From assembly GCF_018704125.1 (NCBI RefSeq), contig NZ_JAGTIS010000004.1, positions 62,001-126,000 of the forward strand: a stretch of 64,000 bases of DNA, in the 5' to 3' direction. A program made the translations under genes and the position numbers. The number at the start of each line of letters is the position of its first letter. The stretch's first letter is position 1. Below the pieces are notes generated by a model. The model was given only the letters and a program-made list of their open reading frames with translations. It was not told the origin of the DNA and made no database searches. This DNA is from Metapseudomonas boanensis. GTDB lineage: Bacteria > Pseudomonadota > Gammaproteobacteria > Pseudomonadales > Pseudomonadaceae. Shown in pieces: positions 16,016-39,961 of the stretch.

Positions 16016-16687
16016 TTATTCGCCGACGCTAATGGTCAGGCCGGCGGCTATGGCAAAAGGTGTCAGGGTAACCGCCAGGGCGGTCAGGCTGGCCAGCCAC
16101 AACAGGTGGCCGACCGCTGGCAGTCCTTGCAGGGCCGCTTGCAAAGCCCCACTGCCGAGAATCAGCACCGGGATGTACAGCGGCAAAATCAGCAGGGCAA
16201 GCAGCAGTCCACCACGTTTGAGCCCTACGGTTAGCGCGGCACCGACCGCGCCGAGCAGACTCAAGACTGGCGTGCCGAGTAGCAGCGAGAGCAACAGCAC
16301 GGGCAGGCAACGTGTCGGCAGGCCGAGCATCAAAGCCAGCAGCGGCGCCAACAGTACCAGTGCCAATCCGGAAAACAGCCAGTGTGCCAGCACCTTGGCC
16401 AGCACCAGAAGCGGCAAGGGGTGCGGCGAAACGACCCACTGCTCCAGCGAGCCATCCTCGAAGTCACTACGGAAAAGGCCGTCCAGCGAGAGCAGCACGG
16501 CCAAAAGAGCCGCCACCCAGACCAGGCCGGGCGAAAGGCTTTGCAACAATTGGGTTTCCGGCCCCACCGCCAGAGGAAACAATGCAACCACTATGGCGAA
16601 GAACACCAGCGGGTTGGCCAATTCCGCCGGACGGCGCACCAGCAGGCGAGCTTCGCGAGCCACCAGAAGCGTGAAGACACTGCTCAT
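16016..16687 (-). CDS. ccmB: Heme exporter protein CcmB
   Basis: 223 aa, six predicted membrane spans. The N-terminus [26 protein letters not shown] is a CcmB signature. It is the membrane subunit of the CcmAB ABC transporter whose ATP hydrolysis releases holo-CcmE from CcmC. The start overlaps the ccmA stop by four bases. Confidence 0.95.
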
Positions 16688-17319
16688 GCGCGGCGCTGCC
16701 CAAGATCAAGTTCGCGATAACCGGCAGGTACCTGCCCCATGCTGTGGTGGGTGGTAAACACGACCAGGCCATCCTGCTCGCAATGCCGCGCCAAGTGCGC
16801 CTCCAACTGAGCGACGCCCTGCTTGTCGAGGGCGGTGAAGGGTTCGTCGAGGATCCACAATGGCGGGGCATCCAGGTACAGGCGAGCGAGTGCGACGCGG
16901 CGCTGCTGGCCGGCAGACAGCGTATGGCACGGGACGTCTTCGAATCCGCGCAGCCCCACGGCGTCCAATGCCTGCCAGATGGCGTCGCGCCCAGCGGGTT
17001 GATGCAGGGCACAGAGCCACCGCAGGTTTTCCTCAGGGGTCAGGAGCCCCTTGATTCCGGCAGCATGGCCAATCCACAACAGGTTACGTGCCAGTTCGCT
17101 GCGCTGGCTCGCCAGCGGCTTGCCGTTGAGGCGCACTTCACCCGCGGTTGGTTGCATCAGGCCGCAAAGCAATCGGAGCAAGCTGGTCTTGCCACTGCCG
17201 TTCGGACCGCTGACCTGCAACATCTCGCCCCGGTGCAACTGCAGGTCCAGCCGCTCGAACAGCAGACGCCAGTCCCGCTCACAAGCGAGGGCCACGGTCT
17301 CGAGATAGGGACTGGTCAC
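16684..17319 (-). CDS. ccmA: ABC transporter ATP-binding protein CcmA
   Basis: 211 aa, the ATPase of CcmAB. Walker A is GPNGSGKTS (38-46), the signature [14 protein letters not shown] precedes Walker B ([12 protein letters not shown]), and the switch histidine is in FTTHHS. It is the first gene of the ccm operon, divergent from the FliK-like gene across about 150 bases. Confidence 0.96.
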
Positions 17320-17410
17320 GGCATGGATACCCGGGAAGTGTTCAAGTCAGGGAGGTACCGGCCGCTATACTGGAACACGCACGACTCGCAGCCGGCCCGG
17401 ACGGGGCGGC

Positions 17411-17416
17411 ATTATA
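17411..17416 (-). promoter_or_regulatory. Candidate -10 element for the ccm operon
   Basis: On the minus strand a perfect TATAAT, preceded by TG, lies about 92 bases before the ccmA start. I see no good -35 hexamer at 16-18 bases, so this is a possible extended -10 promoter only. On the plus strand TATACT at 17369-17374 is a candidate for the divergent FliK-like gene. Confidence 0.35.
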
Positions 17417-17469
17417 CATGCCATCCCCTTCACCCGAAGCGAGCTTTTTCGACAGGTTGTTACCCTTCG

Positions 17470-19026
17470 ATGACAGAAATCAGCGGCACTCGCTCCCTGC
17501 CCCCCAGCCAGCCCGTCAGTCGCCCCAGCCAGATAGCTGCGGACCTGGCGCTCAAGCTGCTGCAGCCGCTGGATGGCCTACTGGCAGCGGGGGATAGCGC
17601 CCAGGCCGAGGTCATTGCAGTCAAGGAGACTGCGCAAAGCTTCCAGCTCCTGCTCAAGCTGACGCTGGCCAATGGCAGCCAGGCAACCATCGCATCCAGC
17701 AGCTCGCGACCGGTGGCCCAAGGCAGCCTTCTCAATGTCACGGCGCTCTCCGAAACCCGGCTGGCCGTGACCCTGCAAGGCGGAGAAAAAGCGCTGGGCA
17801 GCCTCGACCTGGACCTGCTGCCAGTTGGCACCCTGCTCCAAGGCAAGGTGGTAGCCACTGAGGTGGCAGCCCAAGGCAAAGCCCAGGCCGCTGTCTACAA
17901 GGCCCTCATAAGACTGCTCAACACCCCTTTGGCCGGTCGCCAGCTGAGCATCGAAAGCCCGCGCCCCCTGACCATCGGCAGCCTGCTTACGGCAATGGTA
18001 CAAGGCAGTCAGAAGCTTCAGTTCCTGCCGCTGTCGGCTCAACTGGACCAGCTGGAGCTGAGCCAGCAGCTGGCTAGCCAGCAGGGTCGCCAAGGTTCGC
18101 TCGAGGGTCTCTTCAGAGCCTTGCAAGGCATGGGACGGGACAATTTGCCCGAGGCCCTGCGCGGCACCATGGATAAACTCCTGGGCGCCCTCCCTTCTGC
18201 CCGCCAGCTCGGCGATGCCAAGGGGCTGGCCCAGGCGCTGGAGAACAGCGGCCTGCTGCTCGAAAGCAAGCTGCTGACCGGCCAGACGGCCGCACTGTCA
18301 CAGGACTTCAAAGGTAACCTCCTACGCCTGATCGCCCAACTGCTGCCCATGCTGCCCACGCCCACGCCCACGCCCACGCCCACGACACTGCCTGGCACTG
18401 GCACCAGCAGTGCAATGGCCCAGGCACTGCCGACCTTCATCCGCAACGCACTGGGCGCACTTGGCCAGGCCAACGCTCGACAGCAAGCCCTCAGCTTTCC
18501 ACTGCCATCGCGGCTGACCCAGGCGCTGGACGGCGAAGAGGACCTGGAAGCCCTGCTGAAGCTGGCCGCAGCCGCTGTTTCACGCCTGCAGACGCATCAA
18601 CTGTCGAGCCTGACGCAAAGTCAGGTGACGCCTGAAGGCAATCTGTTGACCACCTGGCAACTGGAAATACCGATTCGTAACCAGCAGGAAATCGCCCCGT
18701 TGCAGATCAAGCTGCAGCAGGAGCGCGATGGCAAAGCGAAGCCCGGCGAGCAGAAGGAAAGCCTCTGGCGTATCGAGCTGGCATTCGATCTCGAGCCGCT
18801 CGGCCCGCTGCAGGTCCAGGCACAACTGGCCCAGGGCAGCGTTTCCAGCAAGCTTTGGGCGGAGCGGGCCAGCACCGCCAGCCTGATCGACCTGGAGCTC
18901 CCGCAGCTGCACGAACGACTGGTTGCCGCAGGCCTCACGGTCGGCGAACTGACCTGTTGCCAGGGCAAGCCAACTCAAGGGCCTCGCACCAACCTGGAGC
19001 AGCGCTGGGTGGACGAAACCGCATGA
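17470..19026 (+). CDS. Second FliK-like hook-length control protein
   Basis: 518 aa from ATG 17470; the frame is open upstream only as the antisense of ccmA. The long N-terminal region is rich in Ala, Leu and Gln, with a (PT)n stretch near residue 300. The C-terminal part (about 380-505; LTTWQLEIPIRN..., LWRIELAFDLEPLGPLQVQAQL..., LHERLVAAGL) has the shape of the Flg_hook (FliK C-terminal) domain. The FliK domain switches flagellar export specificity by contacting FlhB. This gene is followed by a stand-alone FlhB C-terminal domain gene, which supports the assignment. It is separate from the main fliK at 40300-41631. Confidence 0.75.
   Translation: MTEISGTRSLPPSQPVSRPSQIAADLALKLLQPLDGLLAAGDSAQAEVIAVKETAQSFQLLLKLTLANGSQATIASSSSRPVAQGSLLNVTALSETRLAVTLQGGEKALGSLDLDLLPVGTLLQGKVVATEVAAQGKAQAAVYKALIRLLNTPLAGRQLSIESPRPLTIGSLLTAMVQGSQKLQFLPLSAQLDQLELSQQLASQQGRQGSLEGLFRALQGMGRDNLPEALRGTMDKLLGALPSARQLGDAKGLAQALENSGLLLESKLLTGQTAALSQDFKGNLLRLIAQLLPMLPTPTPTPTPTTLPGTGTSSAMAQALPTFIRNALGALGQANARQQALSFPLPSRLTQALDGEEDLEALLKLAAAAVSRLQTHQLSSLTQSQVTPEGNLLTTWQLEIPIRNQQEIAPLQIKLQQERDGKAKPGEQKESLWRIELAFDLEPLGPLQVQAQLAQGSVSSKLWAERASTASLIDLELPQLHERLVAAGLTVGELTCCQGKPTQGPRTNLEQRWVDETA
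18355..18384 (+). repeat. Hexanucleotide tandem repeat (CCCACG)5
   Basis: Five perfect tandem copies of CCCACG encode Pro-Thr repeats within the FliK-like protein. The unit is six bases, so slippage would change the number of PT pairs without shifting the frame. Confidence 0.95.
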
Positions 19027-21057: not shown

Positions 21058-21900
21058 TCAATTCAACGACATCTGTTTGACGGCGCCGCTGGCGATCAAC
21101 TCAGCCAGGGCCGAAACATCCAGCAGCGCACACATATGCTCGATCACGGTGCCTGCCAGCCATGGACGCAGGCCGCGCTGGCTGCGCCATTTGATTTCAC
21201 TCGGGTCCAGGCGAATCGACCGACTGACCTGGTGAACGGCCAGTCCCCACTCGTAACCCTGGACCGAAATCACATACTGCAGCCCTTCACGGAAGTCGTC
21301 GCGGTAACGCTCCGGCATCACCCAGCGCGCGGTATCCAGCACTTTCAGGTTGCCCGCCTGGCACGGAAGTATGCCCAGAAACCAGTCCGGCTGACCGAAG
21401 AGTGGCGTCAGCTCCTGACCTGCCAATGGGTAGATGGAGCCAAGCGAAACCAGCGGCACAGCCAGGGTCAAGCCGGCGACATCGAACAGCAGGCACTCGA
21501 AAGGCTCCTCGCCCCAGGCCGGCCGGCCCTCGGCATGCAGAATCGGGATATCAAGAAGCTGCGCGCTGGGAACACTGAGTTCGACGAGCGGTTCGACCCT
21601 CGTTTCGACCTGCTCGAAATGCCGAGCGTCTACGACGACCATTTGCGGCTCTGGCTCGGCTTCCGGCTCAACGACGACCTCCTGCTGAACCGGGACCTGT
21701 AGTTCGGAGACCGGTTCGGCAGTCACCATCCGGGGCATACGTGCATCACGCACCTGCTCCTCGAGGACGGCAGCCTCGAACTCTTCAAGGCTGATGCTTG
21801 CTTCCAGTTCAACCGAGGCCTCCTGCAGCAGTGCATCAAGATACGACTGCAGTGCCAGTTGCGGGCGTGTGGCGGTAGCAGTGGCGACGGTACGGCTCAT
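21058..21900 (-). CDS. parP: CheW-domain polar localisation protein ParP
   Basis: 280 aa: an N-terminal region of about 120 residues, acidic and rich in Glu, Val and Pro, followed by a divergent CheW-like domain (CLLFDVAGLTLAVPLVSLGSI..., WFLGILPCQAGNLKVLDTARW...). In Vibrio and Pseudomonas, ParP links ParC and CheA and keeps the chemotaxis array at the cell pole. The N-terminus contains SYLDALLQEAS and ISLEEFEAAVLEEQ, which resemble the repeats in CheA of this window. It follows parC, its partner. Confidence 0.88.
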   Translation of the reverse strand: MSRTVATATATRPQLALQSYLDALLQEASVELEASISLEEFEAAVLEEQVRDARMPRMVTAEPVSELQVPVQQEVVVEPEAEPEPQMVVVDARHFEQVETRVEPLVELSVPSAQLLDIPILHAEGRPAWGEEPFECLLFDVAGLTLAVPLVSLGSIYPLAGQELTPLFGQPDWFLGILPCQAGNLKVLDTARWVMPERYRDDFREGLQYVISVQGYEWGLAVHQVSRSIRLDPSEIKWRSQRGLRPWLAGTVIEHMCALLDVSALAELIASGAVKQMSLN

Positions 21901-21987: not shown

Positions 21988-22776
21988 TCAAGCCACCTGG
22001 GCGGCCAGTTGCTGGCCCAGCAGATGCTTGAGCAAGGCGCGATAGGCAATTACGCCGCGACTGTTGTTGTCGTACTGGGATGGCGTCACCCCGGCGCGGC
22101 TGGCATCGCGCAGACGAGTGTCCACCGGGATGTAGGCTTGCCAAAGGTGATCGAGGTAGCTGTTGCGCAATAGTTTGAGCGTGTTCAGCGAGGCCTGGGT
22201 GCGCCGGTCGAAAAGCGTCGGCACGATGGTGAACGGCAGCGCCTGTTTGCGTGACCGGTTGACCATGGCCAAGGTGCTGACCATGCGTTCAAGCCCCTTC
22301 ACCGCAAGGAACTCGGTCTGCACCGGAATTACCAGGTGCTGGCTGGCGGCCAGCGCATTGACCATCAGCACGCCAAGCAGCGGCGGGCTGTCGATGATGG
22401 CGTGGTCATACTCCTGCCACAGCTGCGCCAGACTCTTGGCCATCACCAGACCCAGCCCGTTCTGCCCCGGCGACTGGCGCTCCAGTGTAGCGAGGGCCGT
22501 GCTGGACGGCAGCAGGGCGATGCGTTCATGGCTGGTCGGCAGCAGCAATTCGCGCGGGAGGCCCGCAGGGACCCCGCCCTGATGCAGGAACAGATCGAAG
22601 CAGCTGTGCTCGAGGGCATCCGGATCGTGTCCGAAGTAACTGGTCATCGATCCATGGGGGTCGAGGTCGACAACGACCACCCGCTTGCCGGCATCTGCCA
22701 GCAGGCCCGCCAGAGCAATGGATGTGGTGGTCTTGCCGACTCCACCTTTTTGATTGGCTACTGCCCAGACTCTCAT
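21988..22776 (-). CDS. parC: ParA-like ATPase ParC, chemotaxis array positioning
   Basis: 262 aa from ATG 22776. GGGAGG lies nine bases upstream, whereas an in-frame ATG at 22785 directly abuts it, so the later start is chosen. The deviant Walker A is NQKGGVGKTTT (8-18), Walker B region VVVVDLDPHGS, and SPPLLGVLMVNAL follows. ParC is the MinD/ParA-type ATPase that recruits ParP and chemotaxis arrays to the pole. Its place between motD and parP, not next to a parB or replication gene, argues against a chromosome partition role. Confidence 0.9.
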   Translation of the reverse strand: MRVWAVANQKGGVGKTTTSIALAGLLADAGKRVVVVDLDPHGSMTSYFGHDPDALEHSCFDLFLHQGGVPAGLPRELLLPTSHERIALLPSSTALATLERQSPGQNGLGLVMAKSLAQLWQEYDHAIIDSPPLLGVLMVNALAASQHLVIPVQTEFLAVKGLERMVSTLAMVNRSRKQALPFTIVPTLFDRRTQASLNTLKLLRNSYLDHLWQAYIPVDTRLRDASRAGVTPSQYDNNSRGVIAYRALLKHLLGQQLAAQVA

Positions 22777-22829
22777 CGTTCTCATCCTCCCGGCCGGACC
22801 ATAAAGGTGCCGAGAATCAGCACCCGCCT

Positions 22830-25627: not shown

Positions 25628-27829
25628 TCAGCCGCGGCGCGCGTAATGCTTGAGCATGCTCGGCACATCGAGAATCAGTGCGATGCGACCGTCGCCGGTG
25701 ATAGTCGCTCCGGACATGCCCGGCGTCCCCTGGAGCATCTTGCCCAGCGGCTTGATCACCACCTCTTCCTGACCAACCAGTTGGTCGACCACGAAGCCGA
25801 TGCGCTGCGTACCCACCGAGAGGATCACCACATGGCCCTCGCCCTGCTCCTCATGGGTGGCATCACGCACCAGCCAGCGCTTGAGGTAGAACAGCGGCAA
25901 TGCCTTGTCGCGCACGATCACCACTTCCTGGCCATCCACCACGTTGGTGCGCGACAGGTCGAGGTGGAAAATCTCGTTGACGTTGACCAGTGGGAACGCG
26001 AACGCCTGGTTCCCCAGCATGACCATCAGGGTCGGCATGATCGCCAGGGTCAACGGGACCTTGATGACGATCTTCGAGCCCAAGCCCTTCTGCGAGAAGA
26101 CGTTCACAGTGCCATTGAGCTGGGAAATCTTGGTCTTGACCACGTCCATGCCGACACCACGACCGGAGACGTCGGAAATCTCGCTCTTGGTCGAGAAGCC
26201 CGGCGCGAAGATCAGGTTGTAGCATTCCAGTTCGGTCAGACGCTCGGCAGCGTCCTTGTCCAGCAGCCCTTTCTCCACCGCCTTGGCACGCAGGACGCTC
26301 GCATCCATGCCTTTGCCGTCGTCGGTAATCATCAACAGGATGTGGTCACCCTCCTGCTCGGCGGACAGTACGACACGTCCGGTACGCGGCTTGCCGGCGG
26401 CCTCGCGCTCTTCGGGGGGCTCGATGCCGTGGTCGACTGCGTTGCGCACCAGGTGTACCAGAGGGTCGGCCAGCGCCTCGACCAGATTCTTGTCGAGGTC
26501 GGTCTCCTCGCCCACCAGTTCGAGGTTGATTTCCTTCTTCAGGTTGCGTGCCAGGTCGCGGACCAGGCGCGGGAAGCGTCCGAAAACCTTCTTGATCGGC
26601 TGCATGCGGGTCTTCATGACCGCGGTTTGCAGGTCGGCCGTCACCACATCCAGATTAGACACGGCCTTGGCCATGGACTCGTCGCCACTGTTGAGCCCCA
26701 GGCGCACCAGGCGGTTACGCACCAGCACCAGCTCGCCGACCATGTTCATGATCTCGTCGAGCCGTGCGGTGTCGACTCGCACCGTAGTTTCAGCCTCACT
26801 GACCGCCGCCCCGCCGCTGGCTGCGGCCGGCGCCACCTGACGAGCCGCCGGCTCGGTGGGCTTGGCGACGGGCTTGGGTGCGGGAGCAACAGCAGGCTTG
26901 CCAGGAGCGACGACAACTGCAGTGGCGGTATCTTCGACCGCACCAGTGAACTTGCCCTTGCCGTGTAGCTGATCGAGCAGGCTCTCGAACTCATCGTCGG
27001 TGATATGTTCGCCGCCCGCCGGGTTGGCAGCCGGCACGACCGGCGTTTCGAGCGGGGTAACGATGGGTTCGGCAGCGCCGTTGAACTTGCCTTTGCCGTG
27101 CAGCTGGTCGAGCAGCGCCTCGAACTCATCGTCAGTGATTTCTTCACTGGCACCCGCCGGCGGGGCTGCGACCACCGTAGCGTTCACGGACACGGCAGCA
27201 GGCTCGGTGGAGCCCACGAACTTGCCCTTGCCGTGCAACTGGTCCAGCAGAGCCTCGAACTCGTCGTCGGTGATTTCGTCCCCGGCGGCCGGCTGAACCG
27301 GATCGGATTCAGGCTCGGCAACAGCGGCCCCGCCCAGGGCCTCGAGCAACTGCTCGAACTCGCTGTCGGTGATATCGGCGGAAGCCGCAGACACCTCGGC
27401 AGCGGGGCTGGGCGCGACCAGCGGAGCCGTCGCGTCACCACCCGGCTCGGCTAGACGTGCCAGCGCGGCCAACAGCGCTGGAGTCGCTGGAACCAGGTCG
27501 CTGCGTTCACGGACCTGGCTGAACATCTCGTTGACTGTATCCAGTGCCTGCAGGACCACGTCCATCAACTCCGCATCCACGCGGCGTTCGCCCTTGCGCA
27601 GGATGTCGAAGACGTTCTCGGCAATGTGGCAGCACTCCACCAGCGCGTTTAGCTGGAGGAAGCCAGCGCCGCCCTTGACCGTGTGGAACCCACGAAAAAT
27701 CGCATTGAGCAGGTCCATATCGTCCGGGCGGCTTTCCAGCTCGACCAGCTGCTCGGACAGTTGCTCCAATATCTCGCCGGCCTCAACCAGGAAGTCCTGG
27801 AGGATTTCTTCATCGGCGTCGAAGCTCAT
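25628..27829 (-). CDS. cheA: Chemotaxis histidine kinase CheA
   Basis: 733 aa. P1/Hpt domain (1-125) with phospho-histidine His49 in FHTVKGGAGF. A long Ala/Pro/Glu-rich linker (126-345) follows with three near-identical DEFEALLDQLHGKGKF repeats and a fourth degenerate copy; I see no folded CheY-binding P2 domain there. Then P3 dimerisation (VRVDTARLDEIMNMVGEL), P4 kinase (LVRNAVDHGIEPPEER, SDVSGRGVGMDVV) and P5/CheW-like regulatory domain. CheA phosphorylates CheY and CheB in response to receptors. Linker variation of this kind is known where ParP binds CheA (the LID region in Vibrio). Confidence 0.97.
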   Translation of the reverse strand: MSFDADEEILQDFLVEAGEILEQLSEQLVELESRPDDMDLLNAIFRGFHTVKGGAGFLQLNALVECCHIAENVFDILRKGERRVDAELMDVVLQALDTVNEMFSQVRERSDLVPATPALLAALARLAEPGGDATAPLVAPSPAAEVSAASADITDSEFEQLLEALGGAAVAEPESDPVQPAAGDEITDDEFEALLDQLHGKGKFVGSTEPAAVSVNATVVAAPPAGASEEITDDEFEALLDQLHGKGKFNGAAEPIVTPLETPVVPAANPAGGEHITDDEFESLLDQLHGKGKFTGAVEDTATAVVVAPGKPAVAPAPKPVAKPTEPAARQVAPAAASGGAAVSEAETTVRVDTARLDEIMNMVGELVLVRNRLVRLGLNSGDESMAKAVSNLDVVTADLQTAVMKTRMQPIKKVFGRFPRLVRDLARNLKKEINLELVGEETDLDKNLVEALADPLVHLVRNAVDHGIEPPEEREAAGKPRTGRVVLSAEQEGDHILLMITDDGKGMDASVLRAKAVEKGLLDKDAAERLTELECYNLIFAPGFSTKSEISDVSGRGVGMDVVKTKISQLNGTVNVFSQKGLGSKIVIKVPLTLAIMPTLMVMLGNQAFAFPLVNVNEIFHLDLSRTNVVDGQEVVIVRDKALPLFYLKRWLVRDATHEEQGEGHVVILSVGTQRIGFVVDQLVGQEEVVIKPLGKMLQGTPGMSGATITGDGRIALILDVPSMLKHYARRG
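26948..27373 (-). repeat. CheA linker repeats (three 19-residue copies plus one degenerate)
   Basis: Residues 186-204, 231-249 and 276-294 of CheA (bases 27218-27274, 27083-27139, 26948-27004) read ITDDEFEALLDQLHGKGKF with one E/S change; a degenerate copy ITDSEFEQLLEAL lies at 153-165. The three good copies are exactly 45 residues (135 bases) apart. The DNA of the copies is also similar, which points to tandem duplication followed by conservation of the motif while the spacers diverged. Confidence 0.95.
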
Positions 27830-27840
27830 ATGAGCGCTCC

Positions 27841-28629
27841 CTAAAAGCCCAGGCTGGATAGCAGATCATCGACGTCGTCCTGACCGGACACCACGTCTTC
27901 ACGTTTATCGGCATTGATCTGCGGACCTTCACCCCTGGAAGGATTTTTTTCTTTTTCGAGTTCGGCGCGCAGCGCGGCATGGTCGTGCTGGATGCCCGCG
28001 TAGCGATCCACCTGACTGGCCATCAACACGAGCTTGACCAGGTTGCTCTCCACTTCAGTGACCAACTGCGTCACGCGCTTGATCACCTGGCCGGTGAGGT
28101 CCTGGTAGTCCTGTGCCAGCAGGATATCGTTGAGCTTGCCGGACAGAGTGCCGGTATCCCGCTGGCTGCGGGTAAGGAATTGCTCGATGCGACGGGCCAA
28201 CTCGCGGAAGCCGTCAGCGCCAATTTCCCGACGCATGAAACGCCCCCACTCCTCGCCCAATTGCTGCGCCTCGTCGCTCAGTCCACCCAGCAGCGGCGTG
28301 CTCTCCTCCACCAGGTCCATGGTGCGGTTGGCGGCACGCTCGGTCATCTGCACCACGTAGGAAAGACGGTCCGTCGCATCCGCGATCTGCGACATCTCGG
28401 TGGCGAGGGGCAGCTTGGGGTCGATCTGGAAATTGACGATGGCGTTATGCAGTTCGCGGGTGAGCTTGCCGACTTCCTGGTAGAGGCCGCGATCACGGAC
28501 CTGGTTGAGCTCCTGGATGAGCTGTACTGCATCGGTGAAATTGCCTCGCTCGAGACTATCCACCAATTCCCGCGCACGGTCTTTCAGGGTCGACTCGAAG
28601 TCTCCCAGCATTGCTTGATTCTGGTCCAT
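27841..28629 (-). CDS. cheZ: CheY-P phosphatase CheZ
   Basis: 262 aa from ATG 28629 with GAGGGT upstream. It forms a long helical hairpin; the catalytic region LLAQDYQDLTGQVIKRV contains the expected Asp-Gln pair. The extreme C-terminus DDVDDLLSSLGF is the CheY-binding peptide. CheZ removes phosphate from CheY-P to end the motor signal. It is 11 bases from cheA. Confidence 0.95.
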   Translation of the reverse strand: MDQNQAMLGDFESTLKDRARELVDSLERGNFTDAVQLIQELNQVRDRGLYQEVGKLTRELHNAIVNFQIDPKLPLATEMSQIADATDRLSYVVQMTERAANRTMDLVEESTPLLGGLSDEAQQLGEEWGRFMRREIGADGFRELARRIEQFLTRSQRDTGTLSGKLNDILLAQDYQDLTGQVIKRVTQLVTEVESNLVKLVLMASQVDRYAGIQHDHAALRAELEKEKNPSRGEGPQINADKREDVVSGQDDVDDLLSSLGF

Positions 28630-28648
28630 GGCACCCTCGCGGCTGGCA

Positions 28649-29035
28649 CTAGCCACTGACCCGTTCGAAAATCTTCTCGATCTTTTCCTTCAATACCTGA
28701 GCAGTGAAGGGCTTGACGACGTAGCCGTTCACGCCGGCCTGGGCCGCTTCGATGATCTGGTCGCGCTTGGCTTCAGCGGTGACCATCAGCACGGGCAAGT
28801 GCTTCAGGCGGTCATCGGCGCGCACCGCGCGCAGCAGATCGATGCCGGTCATGCCGGGCATGTTCCAGTCGGTCACGAGGAAATCGAAATTACCGCTGTG
28901 CAGCATCGGCAACGCCGTGGTGCCGTCGTCGGCCTCGGCGGTATTGGTGAAGCCCAAGTCGCGCAAGAGGTTCTTGATGATGCGTCTCATCGTCGAGAAA
29001 TCGTCAACGATGAGGATTTTCATGTTCTTGTCCAA
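28649..29035 (-). CDS. cheY: Chemotaxis response regulator CheY
   Basis: 128 aa if it starts at TTG 29035, 124 aa if at ATG 29023. GGAGG (29041-29045) lies five bases before the TTG and 17 before the ATG, so the ribosome-binding site favours TTG, although homologues are usually given the ATG start ([14 protein letters not shown]). It is a single receiver domain: acidic pair in VDD, phospho-acceptor in [10 protein letters not shown], Thr in [10 protein letters not shown] and Lys in YVVKPF. CheY-P binds FliM and changes motor rotation. Confidence 0.95.
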
Positions 29036-37937: not shown

Positions 37938-38405
37938 TCAGCGCAGCTTCTTGATGCGTTCGCTCGGGCTGATCACATCAGTCAGCCGAATACCGAACTT
38001 CTCATTGACCACCACTACCTCACCATGGGCGATCAGAGTGCCATTGACCAACACATCCAGCGGCTCGCCGGCCAGGCGATCGAGCTCGATCACCGAGCCC
38101 TGGTTGAGCTGCAGCAGGTTGCGAATGGTGATGTCGGTATTGCCCACTTCCATGGAAATGGACACCGGGATGTCGAGAATCACATCCAGGTTCGGACCGT
38201 CCAGCGTCACCAGCCCGCCAGCGGCCTTGGGCCCGCTGCCGAACTCTTCCATCGGCGCTCGCGGCGAACTCGGTGCGGCAGCACCCTGGTTCATCAGGGC
38301 ATCGATGTCGTCCTGGCTGGCATCGCCGGCTTCGGCCAGTGCCGCAGCCCACTCGTCGGCCAGGGCCTGTTCCTCAGGGGTGGTGGTGCCCATGTCGCTT
38401 GCCAT
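37938..38405 (-). CDS. fliN: Flagellar motor switch protein FliN
   Basis: 155 aa, longer than enteric FliN because of an acidic N-terminal extension of about 70 residues (EEQALADEWAAALAEAGDAS...). The C-terminal SpoA domain (LDVILDIPVSISMEVGNTDITIRNLLQLNQGSVIELDRLAGEPLDVLVNG) forms the bottom of the C-ring and helps dock FliH. The start is ATG 38405; an in-frame ATG four codons later is possible. Confidence 0.96.
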   Translation of the reverse strand: MASDMGTTTPEEQALADEWAAALAEAGDASQDDIDALMNQGAAAPSSPRAPMEEFGSGPKAAGGLVTLDGPNLDVILDIPVSISMEVGNTDITIRNLLQLNQGSVIELDRLAGEPLDVLVNGTLIAHGEVVVVNEKFGIRLTDVISPSERIKKLR

Positions 38406-38448
38406 CGGTTGACCTCGTCTGGCTCTTGATTCGTTGGCAGCGTCGCTA

Positions 38449-39420
38449 TCAGCGCTGACGCTCTATGGGATCGAGGATCTGCAAGGACAAGTTGCCCTTG
38501 TGCGATCCCAACTTGGCCTTGAAGGCCGGCACACCGTTGGCGCGCATGATGATGTGTTCAGGCATCTCGACCGGAATCACGTCGCCCGGCTGCATGTGCA
38601 GGATGTCGCGCAGCTTGAGCTGGCGGCGCACCACGGTAGCGGCTACCGGCACGCTGACATCGAGGATGTCCTCGCGCAGGGCCTTGATCCAGCGCTCGTC
38701 CTGGTCGTCGACGTCGGACTGGAAGCCGGCATCGAGCATCTCGCGGATCGGTTCGATCATCGAATAGGGCATGGTGACGTGCAGGTCGCCGCCGCCGCCA
38801 TCCAGTTCGATGTGGAAGGTAGACACCACCACCACTTCGCTGGGGCTGACGATGTTGGCCAGCGCCGGGTTCACCTCGGAATTGATGTATTCGAAGTTCA
38901 CATCCAACACGGCATGCCACGCTTCAGCCAGATCAACGAAAGCCTGGTCCAGCACCATGCGCACCACGCGCAGCTCGGTAGGGGTGAACTCACGCCCCTC
39001 GATCTTGGCGTGGCGTCCGTCGCCGCCGAAGAAATTGTCCACCAGCTTGAACACCAGCTTGGCATCGAGGATGAACAGTGTCGTGCCGCGCAGCGGCTTC
39101 ATCTTCACCAGATTGAGGCTGGTCGGCACGTAGAGCGAATGCACGTACTCGCCGAACTTCATCACTTGCACGCCGCCCACCGCCACATCCGCCGAGCGGC
39201 GCAACAGGTTGAACATGCTGATGCGGGTGTATCGGGCGAAACGCTCGTTGATCATCTCCAGGGTCGGCATACGCCCCCGGACGATGCGATCCTGGCTGGT
39301 CAGGTCGTAGCTTTTGATACTGCCAGGTTCGGCCTCGGACTCGGTTTCCACCAGGCCATCGTCGACGCCGTGCAACAGCGCATCGATTTCATCCTGGGAC
39401 AGCAGGTCTTGAACAGCCAT
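38449..39420 (-). CDS. fliM: Flagellar motor switch protein FliM
   Basis: 323 aa from ATG 39420 (MAVQDLLSQDEIDALLHG); upstream frame lies in fliL. The CheY-P-binding peptide LSQDEIDALLHG is at residues 7-18, followed by the middle CheC-like domain and the C-terminal SpoA domain. FliM receives CheY-P and sets rotation direction. It starts 13 bases after the fliL stop. Confidence 0.97.
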   Translation of the reverse strand: MAVQDLLSQDEIDALLHGVDDGLVETESEAEPGSIKSYDLTSQDRIVRGRMPTLEMINERFARYTRISMFNLLRRSADVAVGGVQVMKFGEYVHSLYVPTSLNLVKMKPLRGTTLFILDAKLVFKLVDNFFGGDGRHAKIEGREFTPTELRVVRMVLDQAFVDLAEAWHAVLDVNFEYINSEVNPALANIVSPSEVVVVSTFHIELDGGGGDLHVTMPYSMIEPIREMLDAGFQSDVDDQDERWIKALREDILDVSVPVAATVVRRQLKLRDILHMQPGDVIPVEMPEHIIMRANGVPAFKAKLGSHKGNLSLQILDPIERQR

Positions 39421-39433
39421 GGTTGCACCTTGC

Positions 39434-39961
39434 CTACTGCAATACGAAATTGGTGAAAAGTACTTGCTCGACGACCAGTTCGCCGATCTCCTTCTTGGCC
39501 AGTTCCTGGACAGTGGCAGTAGCCTGCTGACGCAGCATCTCCTTGCCAACCGGGGTGACCAGGGTGTCGAAGCTCTGGCTGGAGAAGAGCATGACGAGCT
39601 TGTTGCGCAGCAGCGGCATATGCACTTTCAGCGCGTCCAGCTGCGCCTGGTCGCGGGCCAGCAACGAAAGGCTGACCTGCATGTAGCGCTGCCGCCCGTT
39701 CTGCGAAAAGTTGACAACGAAGGCTGGAGCAAGGTCCTCGTAGATAGCCGGTTGCTTGCCTGGCGCCGCAGCCTCGGCCACCTCGTCCGTTGCGCTTTCG
39801 GCCTGCCGGTCGCCTCGACTGAGGAAGAACCAGGTCGCGCCGACCGAAAGGGATACCGCCAGAAGCAAGGCCACTGCAATCAGCAAGATCAGTTTCAGCC
39901 TGCTCTTGTCGCCCGCTGACGCGGCGGCTGCAGCCGGGGTCTTCGCGTTGTTCTTTGCCAT
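39434..39961 (-). CDS. fliL: Flagellar basal body protein FliL
   Basis: 175 aa. A basic Ala-rich N-terminus is followed by one membrane span (LKLILLIAVALLLAVSLSVGATWFFL) and a periplasmic domain. FliL surrounds and supports stator units. It heads the fliL-flhB run behind a sigma-54 promoter at 40012-40027. Confidence 0.95.
   Translation of the reverse strand: MAKNNAKTPAAAAASAGDKSRLKLILLIAVALLLAVSLSVGATWFFLSRGDRQAESATDEVAEAAAPGKQPAIYEDLAPAFVVNFSQNGRQRYMQVSLSLLARDQAQLDALKVHMPLLRNKLVMLFSSQSFDTLVTPVGKEMLRQQATATVQELAKKEIGELVVEQVLFTNFVLQ

Follow-up and report, generated by a model that had tools for sequence, protein, structure and literature searches.

The window analysed here is a stretch of 64,000 nucleotides of Metapseudomonas boanensis (contig NZ_JAGTIS010000004.1, positions 62,001 to 126,000), and the element in question is the linker between domains P1 and P3 of its chemotaxis kinase, CheA. 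On the minus strand, the genes follow in the order cheY, cheZ, cheA, cheB, two Mot-type genes, parC, parP, and cheW. Pfam classes were obtained for CheY, CheZ, ParC, ParP, and CheW; the names CheB, MotC/MotD, ParC, and ParP are those that we take to belong to these genes. In CheA, the Pfam domains occur in the order Hpt, H-kinase_dim, HATPase_c, and CheW, as in a CheA histidine kinase. The gene and the repeats of its linker are as follows.

25628..27829, minus strand: cheA, 733 residues, with P1 (Hpt), a disordered repeat-bearing linker (residues ~126-345), P3, P4, and P5
27317..27373, minus strand: repeat 1 (diverged), residues 153-171, ITDSEFEQLLEALGGAAVA; helix predicted at 156-164 with low confidence
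27218..27274, minus strand: repeat 2, residues 186-204, ITDDEFEALLDQLHGKGKF; helix predicted at 188-199
27083..27139, minus strand: repeat 3, residues 231-249, ITDDEFEALLDQLHGKGKF; helix predicted at 233-243
26948..27004, minus strand: repeat 4, residues 276-294, ITDDEFESLLDQLHGKGKF; helix predicted at 278-288

A preliminary description of this DNA had noticed repeats in the linker, three alike and 45 residues apart. Four can be located, starting at residues 153, 186, 231, and 276 (spacings of 33, 45, and 45). The repeats and the spacing stand as described, but only two of the three, repeats 2 and 3, are identical; repeat 4 differs by one change, A to S, and repeat 1 diverges after the core. 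In the cheA gene, the array appears as three 91-nucleotide copies, 77-80% identical, at a spacing of 135 nucleotides.

P2 (PF07194, PF09078), like the repeats, lies between P1 and P3, and the job proposed for both is the holding of CheY near P1. No P2 or CheY-binding domain is found by Pfam in the CheA of the window (at an expectation value E ≤ 1), and a scan of 66 N-terminal parts, among them that of the window's CheA, gives neither P2 family at E ≤ 0.01 (12 relatives being left out because the P3 marker failed and seven as fragments or interrupted genes). Pfam is insensitive to P2: it recovers a CheY-binding domain in 7 of 39 other N-terminal parts, whereas 19 bear a P2 by eye. With P2-only profiles, none of 103 repeat-bearing CheAs is matched at E ≤ 10, the window's own CheA lying outside that set; the seeds were picked by eye and all 19 matches are seeds, so that the search bears on whether P2 is lacking in the clade, not on how common P2 is. 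Profiles made of whole linkers were rejected, as they included the edges of P1 and P3 and matched everything.

The AlphaFold2 model of CheA (79 sequences) leaves most of the linker at a predicted local distance difference test (pLDDT) score below 50 and contains no folded P2. Four lone helices of 9-12 residues stand exactly at the repeats (ten-residue pLDDT blocks of 79, 79, and 72 for repeats 2-4, and 46-50 for repeat 1). As a control, residues 1-360 of L245, a relative that bears P2, were modeled with the same program from 17 sequences; strands and helices within residues 200-272 are folded, with a pLDDT of 90-96 (blocks 201-270). In a Foldseek search, this control model pairs with 2lp4, the P1-CheY/P2 complex (E 4e-12, over a region that takes in P1), and with 1a0o_B, the CheY-binding domain of CheA (E 0.04, probability 1.00). 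For the CheA model of the window, the matches listed are CheA core and histidine kinase structures, and a search of solved structures with the linker yields nothing (best E 1.4). The preliminary description had seen no folded P2 in residues 126-345 and had named a predicted one as the outcome that would overturn its reading; Pfam, AlphaFold2 with its P2-folding control, and the P2-only profiles all agree with it. The CheA of the window is, by these methods, without the folded P2 that stands between P1 and P3 in a five-domain CheA, and it is well supported that a conserved array of predicted helical peptides stands in its place. P2 is one folded alpha/beta domain; in this clade, the same place holds one to six short helices in disorder, with no P2 fold or profile match.

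The conservation of the array was followed in relatives. Among 229 genomes of the class, 85 have a close CheA (own genome counted); 84 loci were fetched, and 60 more after a phylum-wide search. From 111 CheA rows, 10 were dropped, which leaves 101, counting the window's CheA and some truncated beyond the linker (L063, L114). Those dropped are cut or have a doubtful start (L057, L071, L073, L091, L094, L097, and L216, with a doubtful start also in L092), are interrupted in the record (L116), or are a different, P2-bearing CheA (L213); repeats are visible nonetheless in L057, L071, L073, L092, L094, and L116. The clade, which we take to be the F6 class, has at least one repeat in 101 of 101 CheAs, with one copy in 10, two in 41, three in 32, four in 17, and six in one. 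The CheA with six copies, L084, has 1068 residues and a very long linker.

In the 262 repeats, F occurs at position 6 in all 262, E at position 5 in 260, and L at position 10 in 259. The repeat pattern required E or D at position 5, F, I, L, or M at position 6, and L, M, or I at position 10; since it allowed alternatives, F and L are invariant by observation, and E in part by the choice of pattern. The pattern had been loosened after a first version missed L085, L119, L120, and L121. Across the 66 aligned N-terminal parts, the most frequent residue at a position has an average frequency of 0.62 within repeats 2-4 vs. 0.25 in the rest of the linker (residues 130-345, repeat 1 excluded), and further than two residues from the repeats only three prolines reach 60%. 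The 161 spacings between repeats, in the relatives and the window, range from 28 to 111 with a median of 42; the exact 45-residue spacing is a local feature. A survey of repeat number and P2 across Pseudomonas, which the preliminary description had proposed, gives two copies in 12, three in 39, and four in 29 of 80 named loci (mostly Pseudomonas), and neither P2 family in 10 named species, P. putida among them (Pfam, E ≤ 1).

The same Pfam searches bring up another family, SHOCT (PF09851), and the repeats could be SHOCT-like helices that self-associate and thicken the array. SHOCT reaches 25.9 bits with the whole CheA of the window, against a cut-off of 27, and 30.4 bits with its N-terminal part, where no single stretch passes; it is found at E ≤ 0.01 in 56 of the 66 N-terminal parts. 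The match in the window's CheA covers only positions 11-27 of the 28 of the profile (residues 227-243), and a copy number that falls to one in 10 of the 101 CheAs does not favor self-association; we consider this reading very improbable. To our knowledge, the role of SHOCT itself is not established.

The likeness that gives the repeats a candidate partner is to two other peptides of the window, at the N-terminus of FliM and at the C-terminus of CheZ, both found where the preliminary description had placed them. The features concerned are the following.

27841..28632, minus strand: cheZ, start picked within the open reading frame (ORF) 27841-28656; C-terminal QDDVDDLLSSLGF, a CheY-binding-type peptide
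28649..29035, minus strand: cheY, the proposed ligand of the CheA repeats
38449..39420, minus strand: fliM, start picked within ORF 38449-39549; N-terminal LSQDEIDALLHG
38292..38318, minus strand: SQDDIDALM, FliM-like, near the start of a FliN-like ORF 37941-38462 (named by eye)

The CheZ peptide occupies 27844-27882 (39 nucleotides, 13 residues). The CheA repeats resemble the FliM EIDALL and CheZ C-terminal peptides in the succession acid-hydrophobic-acid-x-L-L, and in CheA this core is predicted to be helical. They differ from them by Phe in place of Ile/Val, by a conserved D-x-L-H-G tail, and by being repeated in an internal linker; their binding to CheY is putative. A nine-residue pattern that fits the repeats as well as FliM and CheZ has seven sites in the 390 ORFs of at least 80 residues of the window (six frames), vs. 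0.11 +/- 0.33 in 200 shuffles, a ratio that is only descriptive because the pattern was written after the peptides had been seen. The seven sites are CheA repeats 2-4, FliM, CheZ, the FliN-like ORF, and one unannotated ORF on the plus strand.

With a joint profile made from the FliM N-termini of 25 of 28 loci and the CheZ C-termini of 74 of 75, the best site in CheA has a median of 10.9 bits and, in 68 of 85 CheAs, coincides with a repeat-like site. Among the other annotated chemotaxis ORFs, 10 of 490 attain this score (CheZ is excluded, since it contributes to the profile), as do 31 of 2530 unannotated ORFs and 25 of the 790 shuffled linkers. The likeness, as far as such profiles measure it, is real and modest, at a level attained by chance in ~1-3% of proteins. 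The match between the repeats and the two peptides, claimed in the preliminary description from an alignment by eye, holds insofar as it exceeds shuffled linkers; it is not decisive. Searches with a single profile were set aside as too weak, since CheB equals CheA with the FliM-only profile and CheY does so with the CheZ-only profile.

CheY-P is described as binding the conserved FliM EIDALL motif in a groove of helices alpha4 and alpha5 (PMC9126983; this and the other papers cited are used in excerpt). CheY as the main partner of the CheA repeats is the best reading, a prediction from sequence to which we give an even chance. Several observations weigh against it. Matches of equal quality occur with the FliM-only profile in 38 of 2530 unannotated ORFs and in 50 of 72 CheBs, and with the CheZ-only profile in 91 of the 2530 and in 57 of 76 CheYs. 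FliM has nothing that corresponds to the LHG tail, and SHOCT passes its cut-off in 5 of the 10 named species, with three stretches in three of them. A single ancestor is the probable source of the clade's repeats, so that their number does not count as independent evidence. In CheY, which in the window aligns with solved CheYs across residues 2-126, the region of the face concerned (residues 85-128) is conserved to much the same degree as the rest, with a mean of 0.87 vs. 0.85 overall (76 loci); FliM and CheZ would in any case preserve this face. A role of the repeats in serving CheZ was set aside: two loci without cheZ in the fetched stretch (the rest of these genomes being unsearched for cheZ) keep one repeat each.

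The repeats could instead dock another universal partner (a polar hub, a receptor, CheB, CheW, or the CheA core), with CheY needing no docking site. In E. coli, P2 is reported to be non-essential for phosphotransfer and overexpressed Hpt to compensate. More than half of CheAs (>50%) lack P2 and have an unstructured stretch instead, and Berry, Andrianova and Zhulin argue that P2 is dispensable (PMC10542144). By this survey, as excerpted, the CheA of the window belongs to the P2-less majority with an unstructured linker. The FliM/CheZ likeness above background speaks against another universal partner. AlphaFold2 leaves the repeats as lone helices in a low-confidence linker, although its output has no contact list and docking to the CheA core is still compatible with it. 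With unrelated linker motifs in other P2-less lineages on its side, docking to such a partner is, in our estimation, unlikely.

These motifs are found in CheAs outside the clade. Among 36 other CheAs, one (L216) is a clade fragment without the linker, which leaves 35; none of the 35, 19 of which bear P2, has the repeat pattern in its linker. L248-L250 (P2-bearing) have one look-alike of the pattern each, near residues 525-547 and outside the linker. Sixteen of the 35 are without P2. In L237-L239 (P2-less), arrays of FGFFDD or [FY]GFFxxAPG occur with 3-5 copies (counted by eye), and one to three [FY]GFF motifs are found beside P2 in L219, L226, L230, L231, L245, and L246. A single acidic W motif, PDWNHLYNSLLG for example, is conserved in the otherwise Ala/Pro-rich linkers of L220-L222 (P2-less), and L218 has a looser one, DINWDALHAVLTG. 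One PGEVSL[DE][DE]LExxF motif is present in the linkers of L227, L228, L232, and L233 (P2-less CheAs of other classes), and similarly in L229. In L236, a receiver domain occupies the place of P2; L223, L224, and L251 (P2-less) have none of these linker motifs. A weak match to bacterial globin occurs in 2 of the 39 N-terminal parts scanned. The distribution suggests that, in more than one lineage, CheAs without P2 may rely on short peptides of the linker. One may go further, tentatively and with more doubt than conviction: P2 would be replaced in several lineages by differing docking peptides (ITDDEFEALL, FGFFDD arrays, PGEVSLDDLExxF, PDWxxLYxxLL), of which the ITDDEFEALL kind would mimic FliM and CheZ. 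Peptides of a single type on the kinase, the phosphatase, and the motor would then compete for one groove of CheY, with up to six sites per CheA.

A different partner for the linker is offered by the genes of the polar anchor system.

21988..22785, minus strand: parC (ParA-type ATPase), polar anchor system
21058..21900, minus strand: parP (CheW-like C-terminal domain), alternative partner of the linker (LID)

The C-terminal domain of ParP is described as binding LID, an additional domain of CheA before P3 that occurs only alongside ParC/ParP (PMC5706961), and LID is placed between P2 and P3 (PMC7534058). The Vibrio CheA-LID, likened here by its description, is probably the same linker, and parC-parP adjoin cheW in the window too. 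The repeats might then be LID alone, binding the AIF domain of ParP and anchoring arrays at the pole, and not CheY. Little besides the repeats is conserved in the linker, so that a LID there should include them.

ParC was searched in 24 genomes, where the matches form two groups, one with 40-57% identity (E ≤ 5e-55) and one with 29-36% (E ≥ 4e-40), the second being presumably the chromosomal ParA; eight of the 24 genomes hold matches of the second group only. The ParP profile gives 226-273 bits in three controls (of which G034 also contributes to the profile, via L044), 109 in G179, 54 in G138, and 40 or less (the level of CheW) or nothing in ten others. In seven genomes of six families (G001, G010, G022, G154, G170, G172, and G192; drafts 91-100% complete), neither ParC nor ParP was found genome-wide. 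Repeats persist in each of the seven (L105 four, L085 two, L120 one, L066 two, L121 one, L116 two, and L067 three), with the core EFExLL or EFExVL; in L067, the ITDDEFEALL core stays and the LHG tail is lost, and L085 has EFExVL. Repeats are kept also in G012, G056, and G193, where ParC is present with no ParP-level match. Unlike the Vibrio LID, which is said in the excerpted sources to occur only alongside ParC/ParP, the repeats occur without both as well. Since the seven genomes keep them, the binding of ParP is not their sole job, and LID alone is a decidedly unlikely account. Together with the two loci lacking cheZ in the fetched stretch, these genomes imply that neither ParP nor CheZ alone explains the repeats, and the persistence where neither ParC nor ParP was found speaks for a ubiquitous partner such as CheY.

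Loci with and without ParP still differ. For 17 of the 101 loci, the ParP status is "?", no CheW-type match being present in the fetched stretch. Single-copy CheAs occur at 3 of 67 loci with ParP vs. 6 of 17 without (the six being four lineages, with two same-genus pairs), and the LHGxG tail at 58 of 67 vs. 10 of 17 (Fisher p 0.016, with related genomes counted singly). The fewer copies and the rarer tail at ParP-less loci make a shared role with ParP likely; the differences are hints of a second, ParP-linked role, and ParP is a probable second user of the repeats. That CheY docking and LID may both be true, as the preliminary description had allowed, fits best with the repeats found without ParC/ParP and with the ParP-linked differences in copies and tail.

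Some loci have an unusual complement of these genes. L118, counted as ParP-negative, scores 59 bits and may have a diverged ParP. L115, L117, and G012 (L119, L225) have a ParC-like ATPase near the che genes with no ParP-level match; in G012, that ATPase lies near a second, P2-bearing CheA. At L060 (G179), a ParP-type gene (109 bits) is present at the che locus in a genome without a ParC-level match.

With CheY as the preferred partner, the linker of CheA would act as a multivalent peptide tether in place of a folded P2. Each repeat would be a short amphipathic acidic helix, I[TS][DE][DE]EF[ED]xLLDxLHG, that folds on its partner, most likely CheY and perhaps also the receiver of CheB. From the likeness of the peptides, we infer that the Phe and the two Leu of the repeat would sit in the groove that takes EIDALL of FliM and DVDDLL of CheZ; the repeat would hold CheY near the phosphorylated P1 and let it go once the phosphoryl group has been transferred. 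Where a species has ParP, this array may also serve as, or overlap, the LID bound by ParP, and the extra copies and the LHGxG tail would be due to this proposed dual role.

The excerpted main text of PMC10542144 has no word starting with "motif", "disordered", or "FliM", and linker peptides are not described in it. A study of P. putida gives, after Pfam, five CheA domains as in E. coli, with the CheY-binding domain included (PMC11978298, in excerpt); this is at odds with the P. putida CheA L271, where no P2 is found (Pfam, E ≤ 1). Repeats as CheY sites are not described in the titles and abstract starts among the matches listed, and no paper since 2005 pairs CheA with any of five repeat strings, both within a searched literature that most subscription journals lie outside. 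Elsewhere in the window, a perfect array of the hexamer GCCCAC (5.2 copies, 18354-18384) encodes, as judged by eye, the Thr-Pro run of the plus-strand ORF 16675-19023.

The P2-less majority of CheAs raises the question of how CheY finds its kinase; the published view, as excerpted, is that P2 is dispensable (PMC10542144). If the reading proposed here is true, chemotaxis signaling of the Pseudomonas type would be a multivalent capture by peptides, with the same type of peptide on the kinase, the phosphatase, and the motor. Polar anchoring by ParP could then compete with signaling on the same linker, and the copy number, from one to six, would be a natural tuning of affinity.

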